Part shown: positions 3,616 through 62,198 of the stretch, piece by piece | How the letters are laid out: each line of letters opens with the position of its first letter | Position numbering within the stretch: position 1 is the stretch's first letter | Assembly: GCA_001972305.1 (NCBI GenBank) | Contig: BDDD01000273.1 | Span: 369,205 to 433,204 of the forward strand | Source: Cephalotus follicularis | Lineage: Eukaryota; Streptophyta; Magnoliopsida; Oxalidales; Cephalotaceae | DNA: 64,000 nucleotides | Direction of reading: 5' to 3' | The notes under the pieces: model-generated | Told to the model about the DNA's origin: nothing | The model's input: the letters and a program-made list of their open reading frames with translations, nothing else | The model's database searches: none | Program-made: the position numbers and the translations under genes

Positions 3616-6600
3616 TGTCACACCCCGTTTTCCTTAACGACGTATAAATGGTAGCAATTAACATAAATAATCCGGCTTATCAAAAATTACGATAAATTTA
3701 AACCTTTTTAGACAGATATATCAGTTGCGGAAGCCTTTAGATATAACTCAAACTAGCAATCGTAACACGCATCCCATACTACGTGTTATCACAAAACAAC
3801 ATCATTGTTAACTGCTCGCTAAACGGAGCGTGATGTAATAATCATTTAAACCATAACATCTCCCATAGAGAAGTTCAGATATATAAATCAATTACCAAAG
3901 CATTGTTCCAAAACCCCCAAATACAATATCCAAATTTAACAAGTACAAAACATCATCCTCTCCAACATGAATAGGATTATCATAACACAAAACAGCATAA
4001 ACAACCTTCAGATAGCAGCTCCCAAAATCGCTTTAACTGCACCTCTTCAATTTCCTCCATCAATCTGAAACAGTGGGGGGTTAGCCTTTGTCCTCACTCG
4101 GCTAAGCATAAAATACATCTTGGGATCAAATAATGAATGACATGATATGAATGCATTCATGATGTAGTACATAAATAATACAGGATATACATGATCATAA
4201 TATATATATCCACAAGCAGGTATCACTCGATGTCACAAAAGTACAAGTATGAAATTATCCCCAAAGGGTCCAAATACAACGATCAGGTCACTAAGGACCC
4301 ATCAAGCCAGATCAAAGTTGCTGACACCCAGGCTCAACAACCGGTTACTTGCTCAACAGTGTTTAGTAACCAAATGGGAGTCCCTAGCTACTTGCCCAAC
4401 AGCGCTCAGTAACAATTTCGTGGGAAACCCTAGCCACTTGCCCAACAGAGTTTAGTGGCTACCGTATACGGAACTTGCAACTGCTTCCCAACAGAGCTCA
4501 GTAGCGGAATTCCTGGCTACTTACCCAACAGGGTTCAGCAACCCAAACAAGCCATCACAAGTAATTAGCATATAAGAAATACTTGCAAACAAACATCCCA
4601 TATGAGCATCAGTCCGTTTAAAACATGGTTTACCATTTTAGTTACTCACCCAACAGGGTTTAGTAATTTCACAGTCCTATTCAAGTAATTTATATGTATG
4701 AATTCTTGAAACATTACATATATATATATTGCCCAAAATACAAGGGTCCCTTTTCAATCCTTTTCAAGTAGTTTTAGTGTATCATAAAATACTTGAAAAC
4801 AACACGTTAAAATGTATTCCGATCCTTCGAAAATACTCATGTCCATATAACATAAATTTAATTATGTGAAACCGTTCCGCAATCCTTTTGGAAAACATAT
4901 ATTTCTGTCACAATTCATTTTCCCAAGTAATTTATTATGTATAAAATACTTGACGATATTACATATTTCCGTATACATAATTCCAAGCATTTGAAATCAT
5001 TTGTATAGTCCATTTTAGGAAATATATATTTCCACACTATATCATATACATATTTCTCAAATCTAAAACATTTAAGAAATCATGCGGTATTACAACAATG
5101 CAATTTACAGCAGTAATAAATGCAACCATATGCTCAAACATGCCTAGAGTCATCTCTAGAGTTGTTCCGGAGTCAACGATCCCAAATTGGGTCAACTGTA
5201 CAAACCAGGAGGAAAGACGTCGACGTCTTTCCTCCACGCGTCGATGTCCATTACCCCAAAAGCGTTGAGGTCCATCTTCAAGGTCAGTGCTTTCAACAGT
5301 ACAAATTGCGTCGACATCTTCCCATATACGTCGATGCCTTCAAGCCAAGATCCTTAGGCGTCGATGTTCATCACAATGCATCGACATTTAAGTTAGGAAC
5401 CTTAACACGTCCTTGCGTTATGTGCAAGACTCAATGCACAGTAACTAAAGGCGTCGATGCCTTCCATAGACGTCGATGTCTATGTAGTACCAGCAGGTAT
5501 TACATCGTCTAATCTCCATTTCCAAGGAGGAATTCTCCCTCCATTCGTGTATTCACTTCCCAGATATACCACCTATAGCGTAACACGCACCACAGGTCGT
5601 CCATGCATATAACCAGACCATGAATCCACCAGTAATCTATAAAGTCCAGAAGTCCCAAGAAACATTGCAGTTCTGCAAATGTTTGAAATAGACATCGACG
5701 CTTAACTAAGGCATCGACGTCTATTGCCTCAATGTATAAAGACATCGATGCTTATTACAAAAGCATCGACGTTTGAAAGTCCAGAACACTGTCTCTACCA
5801 TTCTATCCACAACCAGGGGTATTCAACCCACATACACACATAATCAAGCATGGGATTAACGCAGAAATCAACATGCATATATAGTTTTCACCAACAGATG
5901 TTCATGTCATCAATCAATCATTTAGTTCAACTCTCAACAAGCATGCAATTCATGCATTTCATTCATGGCAACACATTAGTTTGAACTCAAAATACACATA
6001 TACTTCTCCTACCTCTGGTTTCAAGTTAGAAACCTTGTAAGTCCACCTCTTTGAGTTCCCAGGTTCTGGCCACAGCAGCTCCAAGATCCTCTTAGCAACT
6101 GCTGCCCACGAGCTCCAAGCCTCCAGCTCCAACAAGCTCGACAATGGTGGCTCTTACTCACCGGTTTCCTCCTCTTGTTTCCTTTGGTGTTTTAAAATGA
6201 GAGAGAGAGGTGGGGAGGGTTGTTCTTATGCAGGTGGCTTCCCCAACCTATTCTCCTTGCATTCAAAGCACTCTCATTCTCTCTCTCCCTTTCCCAGACT
6301 CTGCCCCCTTTTCCTTTTGTTTTCTTCCCTTCTTTCTTTTGCAGGTTGCATGTGAGGGTGGTATATTCCCTTGCATGCACCATGTGAGGGGCACGTTTTG
6401 AGCATGCCTGGCGACTCACTGGCATGATCAACACGTTGCAGTGCACATGTTAAGGCGTCTGGTAAAGCCCCCAAAGATCCCCTATTGCATGTTACTCTGT
6501 CAGTGAAAAAGCGCGACAGATGTTCTTTACAAAGGCGTCGACGTCTTTCCTTAGACGTCGATGTCTTTTACCCTTTTCGTAGGAAGGTGTCGATGCCTTC

Positions 6601-6857
6601 TCTCAATGACGACGTGCATGCCCATGCATTCACGTGCGTCTCGGTTCCAAAAGGCGTCGACGTCTTTCCAAGGACGTCTATGCGTTTACCTCAAAACTGT
6701 AGCGTTTCGGGTTTTAACACACACATTTCTTCCCCCAAGCAATAATTAGGGTTTGTATGCATCTTTGAGGTCGAAATCTCAACCATTCTCATTAACTCAA
6801 AATTAATATTTCAATCAAATCAAAATATTACATTGTACAAAAATCTCGGGCGTTACA
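3616..6857 (-). repeat. B 3' LTR (3242 bases)
   Basis: On the minus strand it reads TGTAACGCCCG to GGTGTGACA. Features inside: the conserved hairpin TTAGCC/GGCTAA at 4081-4105; a hairpin minisatellite at 4343-4668; CAAGTA/TACTTG hairpins at 4558-4585, 4761-4799 and 4924-4952; and palindromic words of the GACGTCGATG type in two clusters, 5215-5775 and 6530-6690. No coding region is supported; the small ORFs across the word clusters are an effect of the repeats. Confidence 0.9.
4343..4668. repeat. Hairpin minisatellite in B LTR
   Basis: Five to six irregular units share a 15-base loop of the form NRCYCAACAGNGYTY between short complementary arms. The clearest are GGTTACT/AGTAACC (4343-4349, 4365-4371) and TAGCCACT/AGTGGCTA (4431-4438, 4454-4461). 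The same array lies in the other B LTR from about 9164. Confidence 0.8.
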
Positions 6858-6870
6858 ATCCACCCCCCTT
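6858..6870 (-). promoter_or_regulatory. B polypurine tract
   Basis: On the minus strand AAGGGGGGTGGAT stands directly before the 3' LTR start TGTAACG. This is the usual plus-strand priming site of LTR elements. Confidence 0.8.
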
Positions 6871-7229
6871 CAAAGAAATTCGTCCTCGAATTTCCTTAAC
6901 ATACTCCGGACGTTTAAGGTACGAATCCTTAGTCTTCTCTCCAGGTTATTGGCACAACTTTCCTCTCGCCTTCATGTCACAAGTGACCCTTTCTTAACGA
7001 TCTTAACTCCTCTCGAAGTTCATTCACGAGATTTGACCCAAGCGATGGTCGCTCATTCTCTGGATCATTCAATCAACCGTTCGATCATTCATTAGACTGT
7101 TACGTCAGCGTTCATTCAATCATGACTTGATCGTCCAGTAAATCAAGAATCATTCAATATATGATAAAACAACGCATCATAGATAACAAAACATACCTCT
7201 CATGATGCCCTTGCCGGTATCTCTCCGCT
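6871..7229 (-). other. B interior between gag and purine tract, pol remnant
   Basis: No usable ORF. The part 7000-7070 resembles the pol segment of E near 25440-25510 (ERPLLGS region), so this is a leftover of the pol end. The stretch 7060-7130 is rich in repeats of TCATTCA/ATCATTC and I recognise nothing else in it. Confidence 0.55.
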
Positions 7230-7350
7230 GTGAAGGTCCAGCTGCAGCACCACCATCACCTGCAGGTCCAGTGGGCTCTGTCACTTGCCTCATCGGACAA
7301 TCCCTTCTTAAATGGTCAGGTGCTCCACACTTCATACATGCTCCATTTTT

Positions 7351-8328: not shown

Positions 8329-8426
8329 TGTTCCTACATGGAAGGGATGTCATTAGTACTCATCTCAAGGAAACAATTCGTTAATTGCCAAGGAACTTAT
8401 CCAACCTAAGCATATAATGGATATAT

Positions 8427-8438
8427 GCTCTGATACCA
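8427..8438 (-). promoter_or_regulatory. B primer-binding site
   Basis: The minus strand reads TGGTATCAGAGC, an exact match to the usual initiator tRNA-Met primer complement, three bases after the 5' LTR edge. Confidence 0.88.
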
Positions 8439-8441
8439 TAT

Positions 8442-11301
8442 TATCACACCCCGTTTTCCTTAACGACGTATAAATGGTAGCAATTAACATAAATAATCTG
8501 GCTTATCAAATATTACGATAAATTTAAACCTTTTTAGACGGATATATCAGTTGCGGAAGCCTTTAGATATAAGCTGAACTAGCAATCGTAACACGCATCC
8601 CATACTACGTGTGATCACAAAACAACATCATTGTTAACTGCTCGCTAAACGGAGCGTGATGTAATCATCATTTAAACCATAACATCTCCCATAGAGAAGT
8701 TTAGATATATAAATCAATTACCAAAGCATTGTTCCAAAACCCCAAAATACAATATCCAAATTTAACAAGTACAAAACATCATCCTCTCCAACATGAGTAG
8801 GATTATCATAACACAAAACAGCTTAAACAACCTTCAGATAGCAGCTCCCAAAATAGCTTTAACTGCACCTGTTCGATTTCCTCCGTCAATCTGAAACAGT
8901 AGGGGGTTAGCCTTTATCCTCACTCGGCTAAGCATAAAATACATCTTGGGATCAAATAATGAATGACATGATATGAATGCATTCATGATGCAGTACATAA
9001 ATAATACAGGATATACATGATCATAATATATATATCCACAAGCAGGTATCACTCGAAGTCACAAAAGTACAAGTACGAAATTATCCCCAAAGGGTCCAAA
9101 TACAACGATCAGGTCACTAAGGACCCATCAAGCCAGATCAAAGTTGCTGACACCCAGGCTCAACAACCGGTTACTTGCTCAACAGTGTTTAGTAACCAAA
9201 TGGGAGTCCCTAGCTACTTGCCCAACAACGCTCAATAACCATTTGGTGGGAAACCCTATCCATTTGCCCAACAGAGTTTAGTGGCTACCGTATACGGAAC
9301 TTCCAACTGCTTCACAACAGAGCTCAGTAGCGGAATTCCTGGCTACTTACCCAACAGGGTTCAGTAACCCAAACAAGCCATCACAAGTAATTAGCATATA
9401 AGAAATACTTGCAAACAAACATCCCATATGAGCATCAGTCCGTTTAAAACATGGTTTACCATTTTAGTTACTCACCCAACAGGGTTTAGTAATTTCACAG
9501 TCCTATTCAAGTAATTTATATGTATGAATTATTGAAACATTACATATATATATATATTGCCCAAAATACAAGGGTCCCTTTTCAATCCTTTTCAAGTAGT
9601 TTTAGTGTATCATAAAATACTTGAAAACAACACGTTAAAATGTATTCCGATCCTTCGAAAATACTCATGTCCATATAACATAAATGTAATTATGTGAAAC
9701 GGTTCCGCAATCCTTTTGGAAAACATATATTTCCGTCACAATTCATTTTCCCAAGTAATTTATTATGTATAAAATACTTGACGATATTACATATTTCCGT
9801 ATACATAATTCCAAGCATTTGAAATCATTTGTACAGTCCATTTTAGGAAATATATATTTCAACACCATATCATATACATATTTCTAAAATCTAAAACATT
9901 TAAGAAATCATGCGGTATTACAACAATGCAATTTACAACAGTAATAAATGCAACCATATGCTCAAACATGCCTAGAGTCATCTCTAGAGTCGTTCCAAAG
10001 TCAATGATCCCAAATTTGGTCAACTGTACAAACCAGGAGGAAAGACGTCGACGCCTTTCCACCAACGCGTCGATGTCCACTACCCCAAAAGCGTCGAGGT
10101 CCATCTTCAAGGTCAGTGCTTTCAACAGTACAAATTGCGTCGACGTCTTCCCATAGACGTCGATTCCTTCAAGACAAAATCCTTAGGCGTCGATGTTCAT
10201 CACAATGCATCGACGTTTAAGGTAGGAACCTTAACACGTCCTCGCATTATGTGCAAGACTCAATGCACAGTAACTAAAGGTGTCGATGCCTTCCATAGAC
10301 GTCGATGTCTATGGAGTACCAGCAGGTATTACATCGTCTAATCTCCATTTCCAAGGAGGAATTCTCCCTCCATTCGTGTATTCACTTCCCATATACACCA
10401 CCTATAGCGTAACACGCACCACAGGTCGTCCATGCATATAAACAGACCATCAATCCACCAGTAATCTATAAAGTCCAGAAGTCCCAAGAAACATTGCAGT
10501 TCTGCAAATGTTTGAAATAGACATCAACGCTTAACTAAGGCATCGACGTCTATTCCCTCAACGTATAAAGACATCGATGCTTATTACAAAAGCATCGACG
10601 TTTAAAAGTCCAGAACACTGTCTCTACCGTTCTATCCACAACCAGGGGTATTCAACCCACATACACACATAATCAAGCATGGGATTCACCCAGAAATCAA
10701 CATGCATATATAGTTTTCACCAACAGCTCTCCCTTTCCCAGACTCTGCCCCTTTTTCCTTTTGTTTTCTTCCCCTCTTTCTTTTGCAGGTTGCATGTAAG
10801 GATGGTATATTCCCTTGCATGCACCATGTGAGGGGCATGTTATGAGCATGCCTGGAAACTCACTGGCATGATCAACACGTTGCAATGCACATGTTAAGGC
10901 ATCTGGTAAAGCCCCCAAAGATCCCCTATTGCATGTTACTCTTTCAGTGAAAAAGCGTGACAGATGTTCTTTACAAAGGCGTCGACGTCTTTCCTTAGAC
11001 GTCGATGTCTTTTACCCTTTTCGTAGGAAGGTGTCAATGCGTTCTCTCAATGTTGACGTGCATGCCCACGCATTCACGTGTGTCTCGGTTCCAGAAGGCG
11101 TCGACGTCTTTCCAAAGACGTCGATGCGTTTACCTCAAAACTGCAGCGTTTCGGGTTTTAACACACACAATTCTTCCCCCAAGCAATAATTAGGGTTTTT
11201 ATGCATCTTTGAGGTCGAAATCTCAACCATTCTCATTAACTCAAAATTAATATTTCAATCAAATTGAAATATTACATTGTACAAAAATCTCGGGGGTTAC
11301 A
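8442..11301 (-). repeat. B 5' LTR (2860 bases)
   Basis: Partner of 3616-6857 and shorter by about 380 bases. It holds the same blocks: conserved hairpin at 8907-8931, hairpin minisatellite from about 9164, CAAGTA/TACTTG hairpins, and palindromic word clusters at about 10045-10600 and 10977-11130. It ends at GGGGGTTACA before the target duplication. Confidence 0.9.
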
Positions 11302-11306
11302 TTTCT
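11302..11306. repeat. Target site duplication of B (right)
   Basis: TTTCT directly after the LTR end GGGGGTTACA; it pairs with 3611-3615. Confidence 0.88.
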
Positions 11307-12175
11307 ACACCTACTGTTTCAAAGCGTCGACAGTTGCTTGGTAAGCGTCGACGGTTAATGACTAGGCGTCGATACTAAACAACTTAAGCGTTGACATTCT
11401 AGACCTTATCATGTCATTTTTGTACCAAAGCGTCGACAGTTGCCTGGTAAGCGTCGACGCTTCTGGGTTTCATATGAATTCCAGGAGCAGTTTCAAAACA
11501 GGGGATGCACAAATTCAAGCTAAACTCAATCCAATTCAACATGCAATCAAGTATCAACCATCGTAACATATTATACATGTTATATGTTCAAAAACATGTC
11601 AAAATCCCCTACCTCAATAGCTTATCCAAGATCAATTTGGAATTGATCTTTCACTTTGAGTTATCCAAGCTTTTCACCAACAAAGCTTCCAAATCCAGCA
11701 AGATTTAATCTATATCATGCATGCATGTAGGTTTAGTCATTGACCAGTAGGTTAGTTAATTATCAGCTAAAATTACTACTTCAACAGTAGCTTATTGCCA
11801 AATCCTTAAGTCTTAACTTCCATTTTACAACTTCCTCTTTTAACTCCTTGTCAACTATCATTCAATTTCAGATTCCTTGATCTTAAACGTGTGAACAGAA
11901 GGTGTGACTATACTTAAGGGAATCAAATCACATTTATCTTGACAACTAACAATAACTACAATCCCAATTAGAGGTTATAATTTCCACTTTCTTGAACCAT
12001 ATGCTACTTTCCCTTTTAATTCTAGAAGATGCCAATCTTTATCCATCTTAACAGAAGGTATTAACATCTTTCTAGTCACACTATCATCACATTAACAGTG
12101 AGTTCGAATGGGAACTTACCAGGAGAAGTCCAAAGCTTCCAAGTCCCCTTTGTACTCTAAGCTTTCAATTCCCAC
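11307..12175 (-). repeat. A 5' LTR, middle part
   Basis: This continues the LTR of A between B and C. It matches L at about 60780-61560. The word cluster at 11327-11466 uses GCGTCGACRG, the same word as A's other cluster at 16819-16966, whereas the corresponding place in L uses CAGTCGACTG. There is no coding sequence. Confidence 0.8.
12171..12175. repeat. Target site duplication of C (left)
   Basis: CCCAC before the LTR edge TGAAATAAAAC; repeated at 16433-16437 after GGTCAACA. Confidence 0.87.
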
Positions 12176-13458
12176 TGAAATAAAACACTCTTGCAATATA
12201 CAAGAGGGGGGTGAATTGAATATTGAAGTAAATATCGAAAATTTAAAAACTTTAAATGTAAAGAGTCAAGGAAAGAAAAACTTCTCCGAATTTAGAAGTG
12301 TTAGGCTAACTCTTGCCTACGTCCACTTTTCCCAATGGAGCTCCTTGAATTTCCACTATCTCGAATTGATTAAGGCAGCAATTCGTTACACCTTACAAAT
12401 TCGTGATTGACCTCAATCACAAGACCTTGACCTCAAGACCTTAGAGGATTCTCCTCTTTTACAAGTAATTGAAAGTGTTTACAAAATAACCTCTCAAATA
12501 GGTTGATATGAATAATACAGCACACAATGTGAAACACTCAGAAAATATCAAAGGATAGAGCTTAGAATCTCTTTAGAACACAATTGAGCACTTTGAGCTT
12601 TTTGGCAATAGAATGCTTGAAATTGATATCTCTCTTGATTCTTGTTGAATTGATGTAGTTCAGTATGAATTGTTCTTATTCTTCTGAGGTTTCAGTATTC
12701 CTTTTATAGCCATAAAAGATTTGTAGCCGTTGCATAATTCATGGAAGAATTGATTAATAAATGTGTAGTTGCAAACTTTGAATGTTGTCTCTGCTGACTT
12801 AAAGACGTTGATGTCTTTTGGAAAGGTGTCGATGTCTTTGTAGTTGATAGCCGTTGGAAGTGCGCGTACTAGCCGTTCCATGTTTCCTGGGTCAAACCAT
12901 TTAAAAAGATGTCGATGTCTTTTTAAAGGTGTCGATGTCATTTCTGGGAAATCTCCAGGTATCGAAACTTTGAGCATCACATCGACTTCTTCTGTAGGGG
13001 TCGATGTATTTTCTGGGAAATGCAGGTAGCTCTAGAAAGGCGTCGATGTCTATGTAAAGGCGTCGATGTCTTTTGTACTGACGTCGATGTCTTTGCATGT
13101 AGGGATCGATGTCTTCAATTGCAAATTTGAACAGTAGCTTCTGGCACTAAAGATGTCGATGTCTTTTTGAAAAGAGTCGATGTCTTTCTGTACGGACGTC
13201 GATGTCATTACTGGAAGAACGATGTCTTCATTATAATTTGATCTTGTAACTTCTGACACTAAAGACGTCGACGTCTTTTTGGAAGGGATCGATGTCTTCC
13301 TATACGGATGTCGATGTTATTTCTTGAAGGTCGATGTCTTCTTCTGCAGATGGTATTTGCCTTGGTATTTGAACTTTGTAATTTCTTGCACATCAAGTAA
13401 ACTTCTCAAATGCAAATATGTTATCATCAAAACAAGGATTGGGACTAAATCGTCAACA
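12176..13458 (-). repeat. C 3' LTR (1283 bases)
   Basis: Bounded by TGAAATAAAAC and CGTCAACA (plus-strand view). It contains a strong TATA box on the minus strand at 12701-12710 and, upstream of that in element orientation, a dense cluster of GACGTCGATGTCTTT words at 12800-13345. The promoter-side 340 bases are repeated at 16092-16432. Confidence 0.85.
12701..12710 (-). promoter_or_regulatory. Putative TATA box in C LTR
   Basis: The minus strand reads GCTATAAAAG, close to the plant consensus. It lies about 750 bases into the LTR and directly downstream of the palindromic-word cluster, as expected for a U3 enhancer followed by a core promoter. Confidence 0.6.
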
Positions 13459-15484: not shown

Positions 15485-16091
15485 AAAGAGTGATAAAAAC
15501 AGATGGATTGGAGAAGACGAAAATGATATTTGATGTAGGAGAAGGATTCAGAGAATTGTTTTTGAACAAATAGAATGATTTTTGAAAGAAAAATAAGGAG
15601 AGTAGAAATTTTTGAAAAGATTCAGAATAGGGTTACAGTGTATAATGAGCATGAGATCGACATTTTATGAAGGAGTCGATTTCAGAGTGAAAGACGTCGA
15701 CGTGATTAAAAAGAAGTCGACGGGTTCTTTAAAAGAATGGAAGAAATCGATTGAGAAAACGCTGCGTTTTGAAAAGCATCGACGCATTTAAAAAGAGGTC
15801 GACATGTTTCAGGGAAACACAAAGAGATCGATGTTTTAAGAAGAGATCGACGTGATTTTCATAAGGCATAAAGTTTTGCAGAAAAGAAGTCGACGTGTTT
15901 TTGTAAAGCATGGAATTTCCAGAAAAGAAGTCGACATTTTTGTAAAACTGAACAGAAAATCAAGCAAAAACAGAACAATAACCAAAAACAATCATCACAT
16001 CAATTATGCATTCAAATAAAACAATCATTCAAACAAAATAAACATCACTCAAGCTCACACAAACCTAATTCTCTTCTAAACTTAGAAAAAA
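15485..16091 (-). other. C leader with palindromic-word cluster
   Basis: Non-coding stretch upstream of the long ORF. Between 15657 and 15945 it carries about ten AGTCGACGTG or ATCGACG words with regular spacing. It is the second word cluster of C, here outside the LTR. The rest is AT-rich. Confidence 0.6.
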
Positions 16092-16437: not shown

Positions 16438-17180
16438 ATTGAGCTCACCAAATCCTCAAATGCAAGCTCCAATAATCCTCCAGCAATTTCCTCCTCTCTC
16501 AGTGTTTTCTAACTCACATTCAGCTCTTGGACAGCTGATATAAAGGTCTGGGCTTTAGAATTCGCCAGGCTCATTAGTCACTCTTCTCTCATTTCCTTCT
16601 CTCTCTCACATGCATCTCTTTCTTACCTTTTCTCTTCTATTTTGCAGGATGTGTAGGTGAAAGGAGGCATGCAAGGCTCTTAGTCTGGGGTTAACAACAG
16701 TTGTCAAGGTCCATTTTTGCATGGCCAACACGTCTATGGACGCATGCCCCTGTCCCCATCATGTCAGCTCTACCTTTTCCTTCCAACGGACACCTATTTT
16801 TGCGCCAGAACATGACTAAAGTGTCGACGGTTAAACTTGGGCGTCAACGGTTATACGCCTCTAAGTGTCTATGCTGGGCGTTTAAAGGTCGACGGTTGGT
16901 GCCTTCGTATTGTGCACGTGTCCAGCTTAAGCGTCGACAGTGTGTATCTAGGCGTCGGCGGTTTAATAACAAAATTCAATTTTTTAATCTTTCATTTAAA
17001 AATTCTATTCCAACTTCAATCATTTAAAAAGTAATCCCACATAACATCTCAAAAGGTATATTTATTCATTCCAAGCAATTACCAATCACAATTTATAATA
17101 ATTGGACATTAAATTCAAATGAGTGCACATTTTAATAATCAATATTACAATGTACACGAATTTAATTTGCGGTTATTACA
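16438..17180 (-). repeat. A 5' LTR, first part (U3 side)
   Basis: On the minus strand this starts at TGTAATAACCGC (17180) as in L. The word cluster at 16819-16966 uses GCGTCGACRG. A TATA-like site on the minus strand lies at about 16535-16546. The segment 16480-16640 is closely similar to L 61600-61770. Confidence 0.82.
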
Positions 17181-18650: not shown

Positions 18651-21068
18651 TGTAACGCCCGGGATTTTTGTTAAGGTGTAACGTTGCATTTCTAATGTAA
18701 TTTTACACGTGGAATTATTGAGGATCGTGTTTTTTCCCTTTGGTGTGTTGAAAGTTGCAACAAAAAGTGTGTTAGTGTGTTTTTGTACAAGGGGCAGCCG
18801 ACTGCCACAGGGAGGCAGCCGACTGGACTCCCCTGGCGAAGGTGGCAGCCAGCTGCTGTGAGGAAGCAGCCGGCTGGTGGGAGTGTCGGCAGAAACAGTC
18901 GACTGCCAAGGCATGGCAGCCGACTGCCGGGCGCCAGACAGCCATGTGCTGTCAGCCTTAAAATGATAAAAAGTGGGAGTTTTGGCATTTTGGGAATAAG
19001 ACAGAGAGAGGGGCCGGGTTTCCTCCATAAAAACACAAGCTTCCCTTCTCAAATCTCCATCTTTCTCAGTGGATTCAAGAGTGTTTGGGAGTAGAGAAAG
19101 TGGAGTGAAAGTGTGTGTGTTGTGGATATACGGAGCTTGGTGTTGAACCGTGAGCTTGGAAGCCGGACCAGTAGAGGAACCGGAACAGTGGAGGCCGCTG
19201 GACGAATTCGGGAGTGCAAGGACCTCGGATTCGGGACTTAAAGAGGTGGATTGCAACTCCTAACTCGGAGTTCTAAGGTTGGGGAAAGCTATAATTGTTA
19301 TTCAAAGTCATTTATAATGATGTTCATGAGTGAAATGCATGTGTTATACTGTGATAAGGCATGAATGTATGTTGTGGTGATAGTGCTTTGTGGTTTGTTG
19401 GGTTTAAATGTGGATTTGGAATGTGTGAATGCTGTTGTTTTTGGGCACTGCCCGCAGGGGCAGTCGACTGTCCAGGGAGGACAACCGACTGTCCGAGGCC
19501 AGCAGTCGACTGTTCGTGAGGAACAGTCGACTACCCATGGAGACCAGCCGACTGTGCATTGGATCTAGTAGACTGTTCATGCCTGGAATTGCAGGTTGCT
19601 TCCTGTTGTTTGAGTAGGCGCCTGCCAGAGGAAGCAGCTGACTGTGGGTGGGGCAGCCGACTATTTTGGGTAACAGCCGACTGTCCACGTGTCACTCTAC
19701 CCGGGCTTGCTGAGGTGGCATGCTGGGACAAGTGGCGACAAAGGAAAGTGTATTGTACATGGACCAGCCGGCTGCCTGGAGAGGGCAGCCGACTGCTAAC
19801 TGAGGGACCAGTCGACTGCCAAGGAGGGCAGCCCACTGTTGGTCAAGGACAACCGATTGCCAAGGAGGGCAGCCGACTGTTGGTTAAGGGCAGCCGACTG
19901 CCAAGTGGGAGGCAGCCGACTGTTGGAGGAAAACAGCCGACTGCCAGAGAGAGACAGCCGACTGTTTGGGACTGTTTTGCATTGTGAGCATATGTGTGCA
20001 TCTTGTACTGTGATAAACTATTTTTTGAATTGGTTATCGATGATTGTGAAGCATTTTACCTCTTTTGGAAGTGTAAACATGATTTATATAAATCATTACC
20101 TTATGTGAAATGTAAGTTTTGAGATATATATTTATTCTCAAAAGATTGTGAAAATGGCTTCCACAACATTGTGAAAAGGTGTTTAGTTAATTGAATGGTT
20201 TAGTAAAATCATTTGTTGCTTGGAAAAGTATGTTTTCCAAAAGGATTGTGAAAATGTGTTTGGTTAATTGAATGGTTTAATAAAATCATTTTTGTTTGGA
20301 AAAGTATGTTTTCCAAAAGGATTGCGAGATGGCTTTCAAGAGATTGCGAAATTGTTATACGAAATACGTATTTTGAGGTATTTGAATGTAGTTCAAATAA
20401 TCGGGTATTACGGAAAGTGTATGATTCCAAGTACTTTTGATACTTGAGTTTTCGGGAAAAGTATTGTTATATATATTTTGACAAATATATATGTTGCAAG
20501 TATTTATATCTATAAATTACTTGAAATGTTTGAAAGAAAATGTGTTGTTGCAAGTATTTTATGAAGCATAATTTACTTGGGAAATGGAGTGTTTGATATA
20601 TGCATCGAGATATTGTATGTACTGCATCATTGTGCAATCATGTCATGACATGTTTTATCCTTGACCCTGGATCGCTTTTATGGCTTTGCCGAGTGAGGAC
20701 AAAGGCTAACCCCCTACAACTTCAGTGTGTTTCAGGTTGGTGCAGCCGTTGGTTACCGTTGGGCTCCGAGGAGCAAAGTGAAGTTTTATGCTGTTACTTT
20801 GAGAAATGTTGATGGATCATTGTAATAAATAAATGGTTGTAATAATGAATATGTTCACGCTCCGTTTGAGGGCGGTTAACTGTGATGATGTTTACTGTTG
20901 TAACATGTAGTATGGGAAGCATGTTGCGTTATGTTTCGGCTTATATTTTATGCTTCCGCAGGTTGTTAATGGATATGGAAAGTTTTAAATCTATGGTATT
21001 TTTGTATAAGCCGGATTTATATGTTAATTGCCACCACTTTATATGTTGTTGACAAACGGAGTGTGACA
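18651..21068 (+). repeat. D 5' LTR (2418 bases)
   Basis: TGTAACGCCCGGG to GAGTGTGACA. CAGYCGACTG words lie in two clusters: 18795-18930 ahead of a TATA-like CATAAAAA at 19026-19033, and about nineteen copies in 19461-19975. Downstream are perfect hairpins: TTTTGAGA/TCTCAAAA at 20117-20143, TTGGAAAA/TTTTCCAA at 20220-20240 and 20296-20316, CAAGTA/TACTTG at 20428-20446 and 20497-20523. A degenerate form of the conserved block is at 20685-20709. Small ORFs here are effects of the repeats. Confidence 0.88.
19026..19033 (+). promoter_or_regulatory. Putative TATA box of D LTR
   Basis: CATAAAAA between the two word clusters, followed by a pyrimidine-rich stretch suited to a start site. The other LTR has CATCAAAA at the same place. 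Confidence 0.4.
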
Positions 21069-21072
21069 ACAG

Positions 21073-21084
21073 TGGTATCAGAGC
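21073..21084 (+). promoter_or_regulatory. D primer-binding site
   Basis: TGGTATCAGAGC four bases after the LTR, the standard initiator tRNA-Met complement. Confidence 0.9.
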
Positions 21085-22748: not shown

Positions 22749-23921
22749 TGTAACGCCCGGGATTTTCATTAAGGTGTAACGTTGCATTTCTAATGTAATT
22801 TTACACGTGGAATTAATGAGGATCGTGTTTTGCCCCTTTGGTGTGTTGAAAGTTGCAAGAAAAAGTGTGTTAGTGTGTTTTTGTATAGGGGGCAGCCGAC
22901 TGCCACAGGGAGGCAGCCGACTGGACTCCCCTGGCGAAGGTGGCAGCCAGCTGCTGTGAGGAAGCAGCCGGCTGGTGGGAGTGTCGGCAGAAACAGTCGA
23001 CTACCAAGTCATGGCAACCGACTGCCGGGCGCCAGACAGCCACGTGCTGTCAGCCTTAAAGTGATAAAAAGTGGGAGTTTTGGCATTTTGGGAATAAGAC
23101 AGAGAGAGGGGCCGGGTTTCCTCCATCAAAACACAAGCTTCCCTTCTCAAATATCCATCTTTCTCAGTGGATTCAAGAGTGTTTGGGAGTAGAGAGAGTG
23201 GAGTGAAAGTGTGTGTGTTGTGGATATACGGAGCTTGGTGTTGAACCGTGAGCTTGGAGGCCGGACCAGTGGAGGAACCGGACCAGTGGAGGCCGCTGGA
23301 CGAATTCGGGAGTGCAAGGACCTCGAATCCGGGACTTAAAGAGGTGGATTGCAACTCCTAACTTTGAGTTCTAAGGTTGGGGAAAGCTATAATTGTGATT
23401 CAAAGTCATTTATAATGATGTTCATGAGTGAAATGCATGTGTTATACTGTGATAAGGCATGAATGTGTGTTGTGGTGATAGTGCTTTGTGGTTTGTTGGG
23501 TTTAAATGTGGATTTGGAATGTGTGAATGCTGTTGTTTTTGGGCACTGCCCGCAGGGGTAGTCGACTGTCCAGGGAGGACAGCCGACTGTCCGAGGCCAG
23601 CAGTCGACTGTTCGTGAGGAACAGTCGACTACCCATGGAGACCAGCCGACTGTGCATTGGAGCCAGTCGACTGTTCATGCCTGGAATTGCAGGTTGCTTC
23701 TGTTGTTTGAGTAGGCGACTGCCAGAGGAAGCAGCCGACTGTGGGTGGGGCAGCCGACTGTTTTTGGTAACAGCCGACTGTCCACGTGTCACTCTACCCG
23801 GGGTTGCTGAGGTGGCATGCTGGGAGAAGTGGCGACAAAGGAAAGTGTATTGTACATGGACCAGCCGACTGCCTGGAGAGGGCAGCCGACTGCTAAGTGA
23901 GGGACCAGTCGACTGCCAAGG
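22749..23921 (+). repeat. D 3' LTR, first part
   Basis: Matches 18651-19830 at about 97 percent by eye, including both word clusters. It is cut at the N at 23922. Confidence 0.88.
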
Positions 23922-23922: not shown

Positions 23923-24906
23923 TACATGCATGATTAACTCAGTGTATCACAGTAACATCACAACAAGTCCAGAATCACAATTTAACCATTAACATGCAAT
24001 TCATCATGTTATTCATTAACTTAAAACCCAAAATGCATGTATAAATCCATCACTTTCCCCTACCTTATTGTTCCAAGTTAGGAACTCGAAAGTCCACCTC
24101 TTTAAGTTCCCAAGTTCTGGCTACCAGCAGCTCCAAGATCCCTTAACAACTTCTACCCACGAGCTCCAGCCTCTAGCTCCAAGCAAACTCAATAATGGTG
24201 GCTCTCACACTTACTGTTTTCTTTCCTCTCTTTCTTCTGGTGTTTTAAAACCAGAGAGATAAGTGGGGAGGGGTATTATTATGCAGATGGCTTCCCCCCA
24301 ACAGCCTTCTGCTGACATTTAACAGGCCACCATTGTGCTCTCTCCCACTTTCCAGGTCTCTGCATTTACTTTTTGTTTTCTATTCTTCCTTTTGCAGGTT
24401 GCATGTTAGGCTGTATATTCCTTGTATGTTCCAGGTGATGGGCATGTTTTAGTATTCCCGGCAATACACCGACATGCCCAACACGTCATAATGCACTTGT
24501 AAAGGCATCAGGTAAGGCCCCCCAAAAAATCCCCTTGCATGTTACTCTGCCAGCGAAAAAGCACGACAGACGTTCATACAAACGCGTCGACGTCCTTCCT
24601 TGGACGTCGATGTCTTTTCTCCTTTTGTAAGAAGGTGTTGATGCCTTCTCGAAATGTCGATGTGCATGCCCATGCATTCACGTGTACCTCGGTTCCAATA
24701 GGCGTCGACGTCTTTATAAAGACGTCGATGTCTTTGTCCCAAAACAGCGTCGTTTTAAGCTTTGATACACACATTCCATTTCCATAACCATAACTAGGGT
24801 TTGTAAGCATCTTTTGAGTTTGAAACTTCAACATTCACATTAAATCAAGTTTAATGATTACATCATAAATCGAAATATTACATTCAGGAAAATACCGGGC
24901 GTTACA
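23923..24906 (-). repeat. E 3' LTR, partial
   Basis: Ends at GGGCGTTACA. The segments 24030-24300 and 24330-24540 match 33560-33830 and 33860-34080 of F's outer LTR. Word cluster at 24583-24735 of the GCGTCGACGTC type. No coding sequence. Confidence 0.82.
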
Positions 24907-24921: not shown

Positions 24922-24951
24922 AGAAATTTCGTCCTCGAAATTTACACAATA

Positions 24952-27817: not shown

Positions 27818-27820
27818 CGT

Positions 27821-29329
27821 TGTCACACCCCGTTTTCCACAACATAGATAAAAACATGAATGGTAAGACAATCAACATGAAATAATCCAGCTCATGCAAA
27901 AATACCAACAAATAAAAACCTTCAATAGCGGAAGCAACATCATAAAGAGCCGAATTAAAACACGCATCACGCATCCCATACTACGTGATGCCCAACCGGT
28001 TTATAAAATAAACCCAACATAACAGTCGATCGCCCAAAACGGAGCGTGAGATAAAAATACAGATAACAAAAAATATCCAATGTTACAAATTCCGAACAAC
28101 ATGATCGATGTTTAATAACCAAATACATAAATAAGAGATATAACAAATCTTCTCTCTAGGTCTCCATGCATGCTCCATATCCTGTCCACTCCGTCAATCT
28201 GTTACAGTAGGGGTTAGCCTTTGTCCTCACTCGGCTAAGTGAATAAACCCATAAATGCAGTCCGAGTCATGAGTATAATGAATGTATAATGATGGGACAT
28301 GACATGTATTTTTCCAAGTAAATATACTACCATATGTACATATAAAAATATATGTATCCTCACAGTACAAGTATAACTCATAAGTTATATCAACACAAGC
28401 AAGAAATATGTCCCCCAAAAAGGAACAAGACAATCCAATCGTCATGACCGTCGCCACCTCCTGGCCCCAACGTGATGCACTCTTACTCCACCCCCGGGAG
28501 CAAGTCTCAGTAAGTTGTTTAGCACGGCGGCTAAACCAACAGCAAGTTACTAGCACAGTGGCTAAGTAATCAACAAGTTATTAGCACGGTGGCTAATAAT
28601 CAACAAGTTATTAGCACGACGGCTAATAATCAACAAATTACTAGCACGGTGGCTAATAATCAACAAGCACAAGCATTTCACAGATAAGTGGGGAGGGTTG
28701 TTCTTATGCAGATGGATCCTTCCTAACCTCCTTCTTCTTCCGTTTAAGAGGCCCCCTCGTGCTCTCTCCCACTTTCTAGGTTTTCTGCATTCCCTTTTTG
28801 TTTTCTAATCTCCCTTTTGCAGGTTGCATGTTAGGCTGCATATTCCTTGTATGATCGAGGTGATGGGCATGTTTTAGTATTCCTGGCAATACACCGACAT
28901 GCTCAACACGTCATAAAGCACTTGAAAAGGCATCAGGTAAAGCCTCCAAACAAATCCCATTGCATGTTACTCTGCCAGCGAAAAGGCTCGACAGACGTTC
29001 TTACAAAGGCGTCGACGTCTTTCCTTAGACGTCGATGTCTTTTCCATTTTTGTAAGAAGGTGTCGATGCCTTCTCTCAATGTCTACGCGCATGCCTATGC
29101 ACTCACATGTACCCTGGTTCCCAAAGCCGCCGACGTCTTTACAAAGACGTCGATGTCTTTGTCCCAAAACAGCGTCGTTTGAGTTTTTACATACACACAT
29201 CCTTCCTAAATCAATATTTAGGGTTTAGGGACCTCTTTTGAGTTTGAAACTTCAACATTCTCATTAAATCAAGTTCAAGCTTACATCATAAATCGAAATA
29301 TTACATTCAGGAAAATACCGGGCGTTACA
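27821..29329 (-). repeat. Shared LTR: 5' LTR of E and 3' LTR of F
   Basis: Bounded by TGTCACACCCC and GGGCGTTACA. On its left it abuts a primer site (E) and on its right a purine tract (F). Contains the conserved hairpin TTAGCC/GGCTAA at 28214-28238, a hairpin minisatellite at 28536-28670 (units like TTATTAGC/GCTAATAA), and words at 29005-29180. At 1509 bases it is shorter than other LTRs of the group. Confidence 0.85.
28536..28670. repeat. 28 to 30 base hairpin minisatellite
   Basis: Four to five units of CAACAAGTTATTAGCACGG plus GGCTAATAAT. Each folds, the clearest as TTATTAGC/GCTAATAA with a six-base loop. A reverse-strand cognate of the unit, with GCCGCCGTGCTAGTA, repeats in D's LTR at 36065-36260. 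Confidence 0.75.
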
Positions 29330-32821: not shown

Positions 32822-34100
32822 TATACATTTTCGTACAAAACGATTATAATAATCATACAAGCCTTTCAAAATGGATAACACTTTTAGAAAGCAACCATAA
32901 TGCAAATCACAGTGACAATGCAAACATATGCTCAGAATGCATCTAGGTTCGTTCCTAGAGTCGTTTCGGGTCTAACGGGTCCCCTTCGAGTGAAATTCTA
33001 CTGATCAGGGAAAAGGCGTCGATGTCAATCCTTAAGGCATCGACGTCTTTATCTTACCAGAGAGTATCAATACGCGAGTCTTGGTTTGGGAGGGTGAAAT
33101 CCGACCTATTAATCCCTCATGAAATCGAATATCACTCTCTAAACGTGTAAGGAATGCTACTGGTTAACAGCAACATATCTAGAACATCAAATCGAAATCA
33201 AACAGGTGATCCCAAGTGGCTTAAATGGCCATCTGAAATGAACACTGCAGTTCAACGATTTTTCCAGAAAAGGCGTCGATGACAATCAAAAGACATCGAT
33301 GTCTTTCACATATTCATACGAAGGCATCGACGTCTTTACATAGGCGTCGATGTCTTCACAACCCAGAACGTCATTTCCACAATTTAACATACCAAGCCAT
33401 TAACAGATCCATACTTTATACAACAGATTCACGTATTCATGTAAACGTACATGCATGATCAACTCAGTGTATCATAGTAACACTACAACAAGTCCAGAGT
33501 CTCAATTCAATCATTACCATGCAATTCACCATGCTATTTATTAACTTAGAACTCAAAATGCATATATAAATCCATCACTTTCCCCTACCTTATTGTTCCA
33601 AGTTAGGAACTGGAAAGTCCACCTCTTTAAGTTCCCAAGTTCTGGCTACCAGCAGCTCCAAGGTCCCTAAGCAACTGCTACCCACGAGCTCCAATCTCAA
33701 GCTCCAAGCAAACTCAAAAATGGTGACTCTCACACTCACTGTTTCTCCCCTCTCTTTCTTCTGGTGTTTTAAAACAAGAGAGATAAGTGGGGAGGGTTGT
33801 TCTTATGCAGATGGATCCTTCCTAACCTCCTTCTTCTTCCGTTTAAGAGGCCCCCTCGTGCTCTCTCCCACTTTCCAGGTTTTCTGAATTCCCTTTTTGT
33901 TTTCTAATCTCCCTTTTTGCAGGTTGCATGTTAGGCTGCATATTCCTTGTATGATCCAGGTGATGGGCATGTTTTAGTATTCCTGGCAATACACCGACAT
34001 GCTCAACACGTCATAAAGCACTTGAAAAGGCATCAAGTAAAGCCTCCAAACAAATCACCTTGCATGTTACTCTGCCAGCGAAAAAGCTCGACAGACGTTC
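32822..34100 (-). repeat. F 5' LTR, first segment
   Basis: Homologous to B LTR from about 5030 onward and to E LTR; the promoter-distal part and the primer site are missing. Words at 33012-33362. The segment 33560-33830 (pyrimidine-rich, TTTGCAGGTTGCATG near 33914) matches E and the shared LTR. Cut by H at 34100. Confidence 0.78.
34096..34100. repeat. Target site duplication of H (left)
   Basis: CGTTC before TGTAAGGACCC; repeated at 35427-35431. Confidence 0.88.
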
Positions 34101-35431: not shown

Positions 35432-35740
35432 TTACAAAGGCGTCGACGTCTTTCCTTAGACGTCGATGTCTTGTCCATTTTTGTAAGAAGGTGTCGATGC
35501 CTTCTCTCAATGTCTACGCGCATGCCTATGCACTCACATGTACCCTGGTTCCCAAAGACGTCGATGTCTTTGTCCCAAAACAGCGTCGTTTGAGTTTTGA
35601 CATACACACTTCCTTCCTAAATAAATATTTAGGGTTTAGGGACCTCTTTTGAGTTTGAAACTTCAACATTCTCACTAAATCAAGTTCTAGCTTACATCAT
35701 AAATTGAAATATTACATTCAGGAAAATACCGGGCGTTACA
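35432..35740 (-). repeat. F 5' LTR, second segment
   Basis: Continues F's LTR after H and ends at GGGCGTTACA. Words at 35437-35570. Confidence 0.82.
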
Positions 35741-42727: not shown

Positions 42728-43204
42728 TGTAAGGATCCATATTTCCATGTAAGATATTAATTATGGAAACGATTTCTTTTGTGTTTTGGCAGATATTTCA
42801 GGGGACCCGTAGTATGACCCTACGCTCGGGGAGTACGGGGGTTCCGCTCCCCGGTTCAGGGGGCAGCGCCCCTAGAAGAAATTTTTTTTTAGCTATGAGA
42901 TGAGAAGGAAAACTGTCTAAAGCGCCGACAGTCCCACTTAAAGCGCCGACGCTTTGGTAGTGACGGTCGACGCCTAGAAGCCTTCTATCTGCGTTTTAAA
43001 CCAGTGCAAGCAGTCGACGCTTAGGGCTAAAGAGTCGACGCTTTGGGTAACGGTCGATGCTTTGAAGTAAATGTCGACGCTTTAGGGTCTGGTAGGTCTG
43101 TTGACGTTGACGTTGACGTTGACGCTGACGAAGACTTGAAAGCGTCGACGCTTTGTAAGAAAGCGTCAGCGCTTTAGTCGGGATTGAGGTGAAAAATTCG
43201 GGAC
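42728..43204 (+). repeat. H-like LTR fragment with GCGTCGACGCTT words
   Basis: TGTAAGGATCCA start and the following 120 bases match H at 34101-34220 (for example GTATGACCCTACGCTCGGGG). At 42918-43175 there are about nine words of the GCGTCGACGCTT type. The end is missing; it runs directly into K3. Confidence 0.7.
43098..43130. repeat. Short (GTTGAC)n microsatellite
   Basis: About five copies of a six-base unit, TTGACG, lying inside the word cluster and differing from the word core by single bases. Confidence 0.75.
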
Positions 43205-46837: not shown

Positions 46838-47499
46838 TGTTGGCTTTTGCCACCCCTTTAAATGTGTTAAAGAGTTATATTTTGATGATTAACAAACATG
46901 AAATACTTGTATGCATATTTTGATATCTTACAAACTCATTTACTCACTTAATTTTATGTCCAAAGTGTTACAAAGTTTAAAGTTGCAGATACATGCAAAA
47001 ATAGCCGACTGCCTATGATGAACAGCCGACTGTTTAGGTTGAGTAGCCAACTGGCTAGGTTGAACAACTGACTGTAATTTCAAAGAATCCCAGAATCTGG
47101 AATTGCACTCCATCCAGCCGACTGTATCAGGGGTCCAGCCGACTGCCAAGACAAATCAGTCGATTGCCAAGGATCTCCAGCCGACTATCAAGAAGTGCAC
47201 ATTTAGACCAGTAGCTTTTGGGAAATCCAATTTTCACACAACAGCCAACTAAAGCAAGGAAACAGCTAACTGTTTGGGTAAACAGTCAACTGTCAAGTTC
47301 ATCCAGCCGACTGCCTTCACCAACGGCTGTAATCATAAATGCACAACAACTTTTCCAGCCGACTGGATTTGGTCTGAAGTTTAAAAATAGATCCGTTGGA
47401 GCATCTCTACATAAGCGAAAGTGAGGTATCATTACAAAATAGTGATAACAAGACAATACACATTTCTTCCAAGCAACTCGAGCAATCCTACACCTTTCA
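46838..47499 (+). repeat. P: LTR-like fragment with CAGCCGACTG words
   Basis: Begins TGTTGGCTTTTGCC and has TTTTGATGATTAACAAACATG-like sequence shortly after (a pattern common at Copia LTR starts). About ten CAGYCGACTG-like words lie in 47003-47362. No interior, purine tract or target duplication seen, and it ends where M begins, so it is a truncated piece. Confidence 0.55.
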
Positions 47500-55242: not shown

Positions 55243-55247
55243 TAATA

Positions 55248-58200: not shown

Positions 58201-59014
58201 CATCGTGGACTTCAGTATATTGTCGATTTCATTTACACTTCAAGAATCTCGATATCCCTTTGTGATCTCGATATCTCTTTTTGAATTTGACTATCCTTTT
58301 GGATCTTGATTTCATTTCTTGTTGTAGATTTACATTGCATTCTACCTTGAGTTTATATCATTTCTCTTTTTATTCGGTATATAGTTATGGGAGATGTATT
58401 ATTTGTTTCTACTCACTTAGTCATTTGGACTAACCCCTTCTCTTTTTCTTTCCCCTCCCAGATAAAGGCAAGATGGTAAGCAATTGCCGAGTTTATTTTT
58501 CGGTAGATGATGGACCACGAGGGCAGGGCATGCTACCAGGATTTCAACAGATGCGTAATATCACGACATAAAAATTTAAATTTCGCATTTACTTATGCTT
58601 TTTTTTATATAAACGGTTTTCTTTTATGGTTTTGCTATTTAAAGGGCTGAGCTCTATATATTTATGTTTCTTACTTTGATGATATGGTTGAGGCTGAGCC
58701 CAACCCATGTTTATTGCTTAAAAATTGTGGTTTGCTGAGGGCTGAGCCCATTTTAAAACTGCTGGTTCCTCCTTCGGGAGTGTGAATATAAACTGTGTTT
58801 TTCTTTACAGGGGCATAGTCCGATAAACGGATACTACATGCTCGATTTTCATAAAAATTTAAGAGTTAGAAAAATTTTCATGGTTTTAAGAAAAGTTCAA
58901 GTTTAAAGTGAGTTTTATAAAAACCATGTGGTGACTTCCTAAAGGAAGTTGTCATGTGGAATTTCATATCCGTTCTTGGTAGGATATCGGTTGTTGTCGG
59001 GAACGGGTGTGACC
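55248..59014 (+). repeat. K2 5' LTR (3767 bases)
   Basis: TGTGACAACC to GGGTGTGACC, followed by a primer site. Same block order as K1 including the conserved hairpin at 58417-58433 and a two-copy 31-base repeat at 57630-57690. A (TA)n run stands at 56563-56585. Confidence 0.85.
56563..56585. repeat. (TA)n microsatellite
   Basis: About 11 TA dinucleotides inside K2's LTR; K1 lacks it. Confidence 0.9.
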
Positions 59015-59992: not shown

Positions 59993-62198
59993 TGTCACAC
60001 CCCGTTATTCAATACATTGGACAAGCATATATGGTGATATCAGGAATAAGTATAAATATTCATCATTCCAGTAATAGTTCAAAAACATAAGCGGAAGCAT
60101 TCATCTTTGAATTAATTAAAACGTAATCATCCGCACGCAGCCCATACTACGTGCAGGTACAATCCAACAATATCCTTAAACAAAAGGAAAATACAACAAG
60201 TACGGGGTATGAACCGTTCATTACAATACAGTACAACATCATGAGATAACAACCTTAAATCGAAAATAGAAGCTCTCCAAGCTTCAGCAGCAAACTCCGA
60301 TCGTCTTCGCTTAATCTGAAATTGTAGGGGTTAGCCGTTGTCCTCACTTGGCTAAGTAGGAAGATAATGCATGCTAAGGAATATATGAATGCAACATGTA
60401 TGACAGTTTATATTTATCTAATATGCAATATAGTATTGTTTTCTTTAGAAACATCAACAATTCATTTATCGTACATCTCGTAGGAGGAAAACGACATCAA
60501 TTCAATAGGGGTTCCCAGTTTGGGAAACAAAACAGTAAGTACCTCTCATTGGAGGAAAATCAATAGTTCGCTTAGCAATAAACTTTCATTTGAAAATGAT
60601 AGTTAATATCATAAATTGTGCATATAGCACATAGTCTGTTCAATCTTTGGAATATATGGAACAATAGGTTTTTTAACAATCATTAGCATATACTAATTAA
60701 CATTAGCATATACAGAAACAATAGTATAACAGTAACATTTCAATTTAAAGCCAAGCAGGTATTATATCAGAACTTTAACCCAGGACAGTCGGCTGTTTTG
60801 GTTGAGCAGTCGATTGTTTTCTCTTAACAGTTGACTGGATGCATTGAGTACTCGACTGTCATGAAGAACAGTCGACTGCTTCTGCCCAGAAATGCAGGCA
60901 GTAGCAGTTTATGTGTATTTCAAAATCTAATGCCAATCCAATCAATGCATGCAACAAGCAGAAAATAACATACATGATATGTATAATATATCTTCCATAA
61001 ACATGTCATTACCCCTACCTCAATTTCTATCCCAAAATCAATTGGGGTAGATCTTTCTCTTTGAGTTTCCAAGCTCTTTCACCAAACAATCCTTTCAAAT
61101 CCAGCAGAATCAGTCTATACAATGCATGTTTAGAGGTTTAGTCACCTAATCAGTAGGTTAACTAATCTATCCAGATGTAATTACTACATCAACAATAGCC
61201 TAATATCAATTCCTTAAGTCTTAAACTTCCATTTTACAACTTCCTCTTGGACTCTTGGTCAATACATCTTTCGATTCCAGATTCTTTGATCTTAAACATG
61301 TGGACAGTAGGTATACTTAAGGAAATCAGTAAGTTTATAACATGGCAACTAACAACAACTACAATTCGAATTAGTGTTGTTAAAACCTCTAAGCTTCATG
61401 TTCATATTTCTTATTCTCTTAGATTACCATTCCAATTCAATTCTAGAGGTTGTTATCCTTTAACCATGCTAAAGAAGACATTAACATCCTCCTAGTTACA
61501 TTATCACCACTTTAGCAGTGAACTCGGATGGAGAACTTACCAAGAAAACCAAAGCTTCAATTCCCTTCCTTTGAGCTCTAATCCATCAACATGCATCCAC
61601 TTGCCAACAATTCTCCAGCAACTCTCCTCTTCTCTCAGTGTTTTTCTAACACACAGTCAGCTCATGGACAGCTGATATAAAGGTTCAAGAACTTTAGAAT
61701 TCGCCAGGCTCCATCACTCATTTTTCTCTCATTTCCTTCTCTCTCTCACATGCACTTGGCTTACATTTACTTTCTGTTTTTTTGCAGGTTACAGGTCTGC
61801 AAATCTTGCAGAAGGAATGGAGGACATGCAAGGCACTCCCCTTGCATGTTATGGCAGCTGGTGACACGCATTTCGCATGCATGCCACATTTAGAACACTT
61901 GTCATCACTGTTTATGCGGCTGCCAGACGCCTGTTCTGTACCAATCCAGTCGACTGTCTTCAATTGGCAGTCGACTGTCACTCCACGCATCAGACAGTCA
62001 ACTGTTGCCCTATGATAGTCGGCTGTTTGAGCTGGTTTAGGGTTTCTTAAGTTTGATACTTCACCAATTGTACATCCATTCATGTCAAGCATTTACCAAA
62101 GACATAAATTATTAAAATTGGACAAATAACTCAATTAAAAAGTATATTTTATTTTAAAATTGGATCAATATACATTAATTGAATTTGCGGTTATTACA
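59993..62198 (-). repeat. L 3' LTR (2206 bases, uninterrupted)
   Basis: TGTCACACCCC to TTATTACA in plus view. It is the reference copy that let me place X and A. Conserved hairpin TTAGCC/GGCTAA at 60331-60355. CAGTCGACTG words in two clusters, 60783-60880 and 61947-62030, either side of the TATA-like site at 61673-61683 (minus strand). The ORF on 61718-62092 is also seen in X at 780-960 but is not convincing as a gene. Confidence 0.87.
61673..61683 (-). promoter_or_regulatory. Putative LTR TATA box of L
   Basis: The minus strand reads CCTTTATATCAGC, the same as in X (1031) and A (about 16535). Confidence 0.5.

Follow-up and report, generated by a model that had tools for sequence, protein, structure and literature searches.

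Arrays of TCGA-centred near-palindromic words around candidate promoters of nested long terminal repeats in Cephalotus follicularis

The window analyzed in the present study is a 64-kb stretch from Cephalotus follicularis (contig BDDD01000273.1, positions 369,205 to 433,204 of the forward strand). It is plant-like DNA dense with nested long terminal repeat (LTR) retrotransposons. Ty3/gypsy LTRs of several lineages in this window carry arrays of a TCGA-centred near-palindromic word. The core promoter candidate is preceded by one such array and, in the LTRs designated L, A, B, D, and F5, followed by another; in element C, the second array is that of the leader.

Pfam models matched in nine of the ten open reading frame (ORF) stretches scanned. 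The Retrotrans_gag and Ty3_capsid matches of the B element were above the Pfam cut-off, and the E/F elements matched RVP_2, Integrase_H2C2, RNase H, and Tf2-1 SH3. Chromo matches in E (E 1.1e-4) and beside L (E 7.6e-4) were under the cut-off, whereas SH3_Tf2-1 was above it. L, K, A, B, D, and E/F are tentatively named Tekay-like chromoviruses, and L, K, A, and D were placed in Ty3/gypsy by backbone similarity and the LTR tree described below. Element C has an ORF matching PF20167, and its LTR showed no similarity to the other LTRs at E 1e-4 outside the words. The C protein (14498-15547) comprises a lysine-rich N-terminal part and the PF20167 (Transposase_32) domain; a single-sequence structure model of this protein was discarded because its mean predicted local distance difference test score (43.4) was too poor.

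LTR ends are given here with an accuracy of two bases. The L LTR (59993-62199, minus strand) is approximately 2.2 kb long. The K LTR (plus strand) begins near 491 and, after an interruption with an assumed inner joint, runs to 18473, and the A LTR (minus strand) is interrupted by B and C. Element B (minus strand), flanked by TTTCT on both sides, has LTRs at 3616-6858 (3') and 8442-11302 (5') and a single interior ORF of at least 120 amino acids, a gag. Element D (plus strand) is bordered on each side by ATATT; its 5' LTR spans 18651-21068, and its 3' LTR consists of 22749-23921 plus 36542-37014. Coding-direction ORFs of at least 120 amino acids in the interiors of B (6859-8441) and D (21069-22748) look gag-only, the D assignment being made by similarity to B without a model scan; therefore, both elements may be non-autonomous. 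On the minus strand, the E/F LTRs are F5 (from approximately 35914 down), M (29329-27821), and E3 (from approximately 24904 down). The E/F region (23923-35914) has three LTRs and two internal regions in series, as inter-LTR recombination would leave. An N at 23922, where this region meets the D LTR, may mark a join in the assembly. Five LTR ends are followed by a primer-binding-site motif; at up to two mismatches, its count in the window (7 versus 4.6 expected) was not above chance.

The word CAGYCGACTG forms the upstream (61942..62031) and downstream (60781..60884) arrays of L on the minus strand and, on the plus strand, those of the D 5' LTR (18790..18931 and 19456..19969). The D 3' LTR has the corresponding arrays at 22888..23029 and 23554..23920, the latter cut at 23921. 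K has six CAGYCGACTG words at spacings of 21 and 27 bp in an upstream array (634..770, plus strand). The remaining arrays of these lineages are on the minus strand. The A LTR has GTCGAC-cored words upstream (16816..16967) and GCGTCGACGC-like words downstream (11319..11466). The word GACRTCGACGYC marks the upstream arrays of the B 3' LTR (6530..6669) and M (29004..29162), as well as the C LTR array (12904..13301); the C leader array (15649..15943) has looser TCGACKTCTTTT words. The B 3' LTR has its downstream array at 5212..5778, and the B 5' LTR has arrays at 10974..11113 (upstream) and 10040..10607 (downstream). The upstream arrays of E3 and F5 are at 24579..24737 and 35435..35573, respectively, and the downstream array of F5 is at 33011..33359. 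The initial annotation, made from the letters of this stretch, had located these arrays within tens of bases, including those of the C LTR and leader. It had the right B, E/F, and C words on the other strand; in transcript orientation, they read GACATCGACGTC, GACGTCGACGCC, and similar. It also treated E/F as a type apart from B, which was not borne out, the backbones being 73-79% alike and the word identical in type.

The K array was absent from that annotation, as were two words at 18494-18532, a GCGTCGACGC-like (GCG-type) array at 42917..43189, and an array of the word CAGCCGACTG at 46997..47370; the latter two carry no strand assignment. The array at 42917-43189 probably belongs to the LTR type found at 49529-53183, as it is located at the edge of a stretch that is 75% like that LTR.

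The core promoter candidate of L, TTTATATCAGCTG (61669..61681, minus strand), is also present in K and A (LTR positions 519, 542, and 637 in L, K, and A, respectively). A CATAA-type box is common to B, M, E3, F5, and D5, the 5' LTR of D (LTR positions 628, 621, 621, 2107, and 375, respectively). The first upstream word is at LTR position 149 to 352, a B site of another kind at 150 having been set aside. These candidates lie between the two arrays in L, A, B, F5, and D5; in C, a lone unaligned TATA-like box is 3' of the LTR array. A splice-donor-like GGTAAG or GGTAGG is present 3' of the promoter candidate in L, K, A, B, E3, and F5, and is not intact in D. GGTAAG is kept in L (61533-61543), K (1169-1179), and A (12112-12122), suggesting a leader intron. 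Since the downstream arrays are 3' of this site, they may lie within such an intron.

We listed CG-centred sites with a TCGA, CCGA, or TCGG core in the array regions without requiring an outer palindrome, and nearly all had TCGA or CCGA. For most counts, only sites with at least three of five dyad pairs were kept as words, which left 91 words distributed over 13 arrays (L, K, A, B3, which is the B 3' LTR, D5, F5, and C); D3 (the D 3' LTR), M, E3, and B5 (the B 5' LTR) were excluded as homologous copies. A set of 94 words additionally includes those found in D3 only. Each upstream array holds 3-11 words. The observed/expected ratio of CpG was higher in the arrays than in the rest in A (1.42 and 0.53, respectively), B (1.18 and 0.52), F (1.23 and 0.52), C (1.33 and 0.64), the C leader (1.45 and 0.91), K (0.77 and 0.53), and L (0.56 and 0.45), and lower in D (0.51 and 0.77).

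Perfect 10-bp CG-centred palindromes numbered 31 in the window versus a mean of 8.0 and a maximum of 15 in 20 dinucleotide shuffles. When 14 arrays were individually examined with four of five dyad pairs required and 500 shuffles each, the observed count was reached in at most 12 shuffles in ten of them. This strict test was weak or failed for A upstream (500/500), F5 downstream (152/500), A downstream (69/500), and C upstream (30/500). The palindromic word claimed initially for each LTR was consequently retained for most arrays and not for A, which is better described as having a recurrent word with a GTCGAC core than a complete palindrome. Left and right arms differed by no more than 1.5 bits (of about 8) in five of the seven sets, although words filtered for three of five dyad pairs favour symmetry in this comparison; the arms were unequal in the C leader (5.6 left and 8.0 right) and C upstream (8.7 and 7.1).

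The words are also regularly spaced. Successive spacings of 19-22 bp accounted for 42 of 78, whereas 2000 random placements within the same spans averaged 7.6 and never exceeded 17, and 72 of the 91 words had a neighbour at this distance, which corresponds to two helical turns. In a periodogram of 195 distances up to 130 bp, R was 0.42 at 10 bp, the strongest period tested, 0.38 at 10.5 bp, 0.37 at 21 bp, and 0.33 at 7 bp. Three-turn spacings (30-32 bp; 7/78) are suggestive only, and spacings of 27 and 67 bp recur too.

Word type did not follow the backbone. Two trees were built from LTR sequence that excludes the arrays. In that of the last 460 bp, L, K, and A grouped together (89/93), as did M, B, and D (86/93), with moderate support and long A and M branches. 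The first 135 bp split L, K, and A from M, E3, B, and D (100/100). Arm scoring assigned the CAG type to the L, K, and D words and the GCG type to eight of the nine A words, while B, E/F, and C words were GAC-like. The D word is unlike that of B/E/F and resembles that of L/K, and the A word is unlike that of L/K. A words were nearer to B words (4.5-5.3 of 14 bp) than to L words (5.3-6.3), and the distance between D and B words was 7.6-8.3. At least two word changes are required on the tree, one separating A from L/K and another separating D from B/E/F. L and A aligned at 72-85% in five stretches, with gaps spanning both arrays plus one more stretch; a more sensitive search gave best E-values of 0.02 for the downstream arrays and 0.004 for the upstream region, in each case from a match outside the words. 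Moreover, word types recurred on backbones that were otherwise dissimilar at E 1e-4.

In A, D, B, F, and L, the two arrays have the same word. The mean distance between upstream and downstream words was 3.50 of 14 bp within an LTR and 5.69 over all pairings. Among the 120 ways of pairing the arrays of L, A, B, F, and D, two were as good, the other one swapping B and F. The corresponding numbers were 1/24 without F, 2/720 with C, and 2/12 within backbone clades. Two claims of the initial annotation, that L and A as well as B and D share a backbone and differ in word, and that both arrays of an LTR share their word, therefore agree with the trees and word scoring and with the re-pairing test, respectively, in this window. 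We observed neither independence of the two arrays nor an exact match of word to backbone. The coordinated swap of words proposed earlier is supported by this departure from the backbone and by the matched arrays, on a scale of the four or five lineages usable in the window rather than of the genome.

We consider it moderately probable, from sequence features, that the words are binding sites for dimeric regulators and have been selected to be the same on both sides of the promoter. The words would be read in double-stranded DNA by at least one sequence-specific protein that acts as a dimer and is most likely a regulator of the host. The usual unit would be a dyad doublet two helical turns apart, such that two dimers bind the same face of the helix and may cooperate. 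One array would act from upstream of the core promoter and, in most of the complete LTRs here, one from downstream in the transcribed leader, with a presumed effect on transcription. If the same protein is served by both arrays, a lineage that changes its protein partner would change the word in both. Among the candidate causes, binding sites fit best with the two-turn spacing and dyad symmetry. The protein-binding cause offered initially is retained to this extent, without DREB or bZIP proteins, whose cores were cited then, as a common factor.

Several results weigh against binding sites selected on both sides of the promoter. The words as a whole match no one known core, both A arrays failed to reach significance in the palindrome test, and word types are graded, many B and F words being tied between GCG and GAC in arm scoring. 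The initial annotation ascribed two clusters to each LTR, which did not hold: no downstream word array was found in K, the middle of which is interrupted with an assumed joint; M has a different 30-bp repeat and no array of the word in that place; and E3 is cut before the position of the downstream array. The 21-bp spacing and its multiples could stem from tandem duplication. Since duplication of a 21-bp unit would yield much of the spacing, the helical arrangement is something that we infer. Word columns were more conserved than the columns outside between B and M (0.906 versus 0.743 identical, p 0.003) and between B and E3 (0.875 versus 0.764, p 0.044). No significant conservation was detected between L and K (p 0.52) or M and E3 (p 0.44), or when B was compared with M (p 0.059) and E3 (p 0.26) against neighbouring array columns only. 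We rejected word conservation as proof of selection, and keep it as weak support, because it was significant in two of seven lineage comparisons and the columns had been picked as palindromic in either sequence.

The main alternative, which is possible, albeit doubtful in our view, is that the arrays are neutral minisatellites generated by slippage, in which conversion or template switching within or between LTRs homogenises the word, so that matching reflects copying. Tandem Repeats Finder periods of 20-21, 41, 48, and 84 bp in the arrays are consistent with this explanation, as are unrelated repeats at comparable places in other LTRs of the window. Furthermore, between the LTR copies of one insertion, words changed like the rest in D (0.961 and 0.969, respectively) and B (0.969 and 0.969) and changed more in C (0.906 and 0.984, p 0.03). 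However, dyad symmetry is not expected from slippage, nor are word types common to otherwise dissimilar backbones. B downstream words were equally distant from F and B upstream words (3.1 each), and F downstream words from their own and B upstream words (3.8 each), which argues against LTR-private homogenisation. The eight best matches between the B and F downstream arrays (16-49 bp) were all on words, and the word type was equal. Gene conversion, also an initial candidate, was not seen in this LTR-private form in B and F; it could have moved words at the switches.

It appears unlikely that the words are sites of one known class, either DREB/CBF (CCGAC-like) or bZIP (ACGT), with the LTRs as stress-responsive promoters. 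RYCGAC occurs in sense orientation in 73 of the 94 words, and some CBFs accept this sequence. CCGAC is present in 14 of 20 D words, but in only 19 of all 91 and in none of the 49 in B, F, and C. Similarly, 19 of the 91 words contain ACGT, none of them among the 42 in L, K, A, and D, and neither core predicts the longer dyad. DREB1D sites are reported to be associated with plant LTRs (PMC11656987).

The imperfect dyads differ by strand. On the sense strand of the 94 words, A-C/C-A mismatches outnumbered G-T/T-G mismatches (106 versus 39) in the same direction in all seven sets, although these counts are not independent because the words are related by duplication. Without D3, the numbers were 102 and 36 (44 to 5 in upstream arrays and 58 to 31 in downstream arrays), and one of the 13 arrays, A downstream, had the opposite polarity (2 to 3). 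Mirrored positions outside the words favoured G-T in L, K, A, B, and D, were approximately even in F and the C leader, and favoured A-C in C. The CG-centred background in C favoured A-C (24 to 7, and 18 to 4 in the leader), and the polarity of C words consequently says little. In all ten segments tested, sense RNA folded below the mean of its 40 shuffles (z -1.3 to -6.6), whereas antisense folding energy was lower in nine of them, the exception being the first B downstream segment. In RNA, A-C breaks a pair, whereas G-U keeps it; therefore, the A-C excess and the lower antisense folding energy argue against pairing in RNA and for a role in DNA or a directional site. Although palindromes pair with their own copies, which would force one word on both arrays, the least likely explanation is that the words act in RNA, with the transcript pairing its 5' leader to its 3' U3 or two genomic RNAs dimerising, and we regard it, together with the pairing between clusters suggested initially, as highly improbable.

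Other repeats are present in the window. The 30-bp repeat of M (28519..28667, minus strand) is located just after the promoter and has approximately five units with a TTAGC...GCTAA dyad, which is full in three. A repeat resembling it by eye, TTAGCCGCC...CTAGTAA, is at 36052-36140. A third LTR lineage of approximately 3.65 kb is found at 49529-53183, 55248-59014, and 43206-45266, the first being a solo LTR with CATGC on both sides. In one part, members of this lineage differ in their short repeats, which are of 31 bp at 46357-46456, 51694-51830, and 57626-57692 and of 14 bp at 40225-40313 and 48972-49062. The third-lineage arrays and the M repeat indicate that changes in LTR repeat arrays extend here beyond the TCGA words. 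An inverted repeat at 54733-55248 has 204-bp arms that are 92% complementary and 108 bp apart. The RNase H stretch of F had no match in viral_contigs, and none of its 12 pattern-matching stretches in genome_contigs was confirmed as a relative. Four exact matches of the 18-bp word in viral_contigs are presumably due to chance.

Should a single factor be served by both arrays, LTR promoters would be modular in specificity. Related elements could then switch regulators through a word replaced in two places, and unrelated elements could share a word. This would make it possible to examine directly which factors of the host are needed by retrotransposons and whether families are in competition for them, and would extend a Sirevirus-like LTR palindrome to Ty3/gypsy elements. 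In the open-licence literature searched, mostly covered as titles and the beginnings of abstracts, we saw no description of Ty3/gypsy LTRs with palindrome arrays that are paired and swapped in word.

Known systems provide partial parallels. The leader of the Drosophila gypsy element, an insect Ty3/gypsy element, has an array of Su(Hw) sites, which are binding sites downstream of the start. Plant LTRs contain the heat-shock elements of ONSEN and other stress sites (PMC11656987); these are likewise host regulator sites in an LTR, but no known core explains all of the words here.

Sirevirus LTRs, as described in the excerpted account of Bousios 2010 (PMC2829016), have a short palindromic word in at least eight copies, with one word per element. 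The words cluster upstream of the LTR TATA box, and ENV-bearing elements add a cluster of the same word upstream of ENV. Most have CpG islands, and the word of a Vitis element, CGGTCGACCG, is TCGA-centred. A multi-copy palindrome upstream of the core promoter is common to that system and ours, except in A, the copies numbering at least eight per element there and 3-11 words per upstream array here. Sireviruses are Ty1/copia elements with mostly a CGG-CCG core, which Tnd-1 lacks, and the motif was called Sirevirus-specific on comparison with other Ty1/copia elements (PMC2829016). In contrast, the present elements are Ty3/gypsy, the core is nearly always TCGA or CCGA, and the second cluster is downstream of the promoter rather than upstream of ENV. 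A word switch between related backbones, as seen here, does not feature in the excerpted Sirevirus account.

In VANDAL elements, a short word is tandemly repeated in non-coding arrays, varies from one relative to another, and is recognised by the VANC protein that the element itself encodes; an unrelated element, AT9TSD1, also contains the word of VANC6 (main text of PMC5735166). In the present window, too, related elements differ in their arrays of a short non-coding word. However, VANDALs are DNA transposons that encode the binding protein, whereas none was identified here, no search for a VANC-like protein having been made, and the term 'palindrom' does not appear in the VANDAL main text. 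We tentatively speculate that unrelated LTR lineages of one genome share a few dyad-word specificities and that matched arrays are exchanged between backbones, each linking its element to a single factor for activation or anti-silencing, which might be encoded by an element such as C, with families splitting or sharing factors as VANDALs do. On the features tested, the present arrays are not a Sirevirus motif, and by analogy they would work like both systems.

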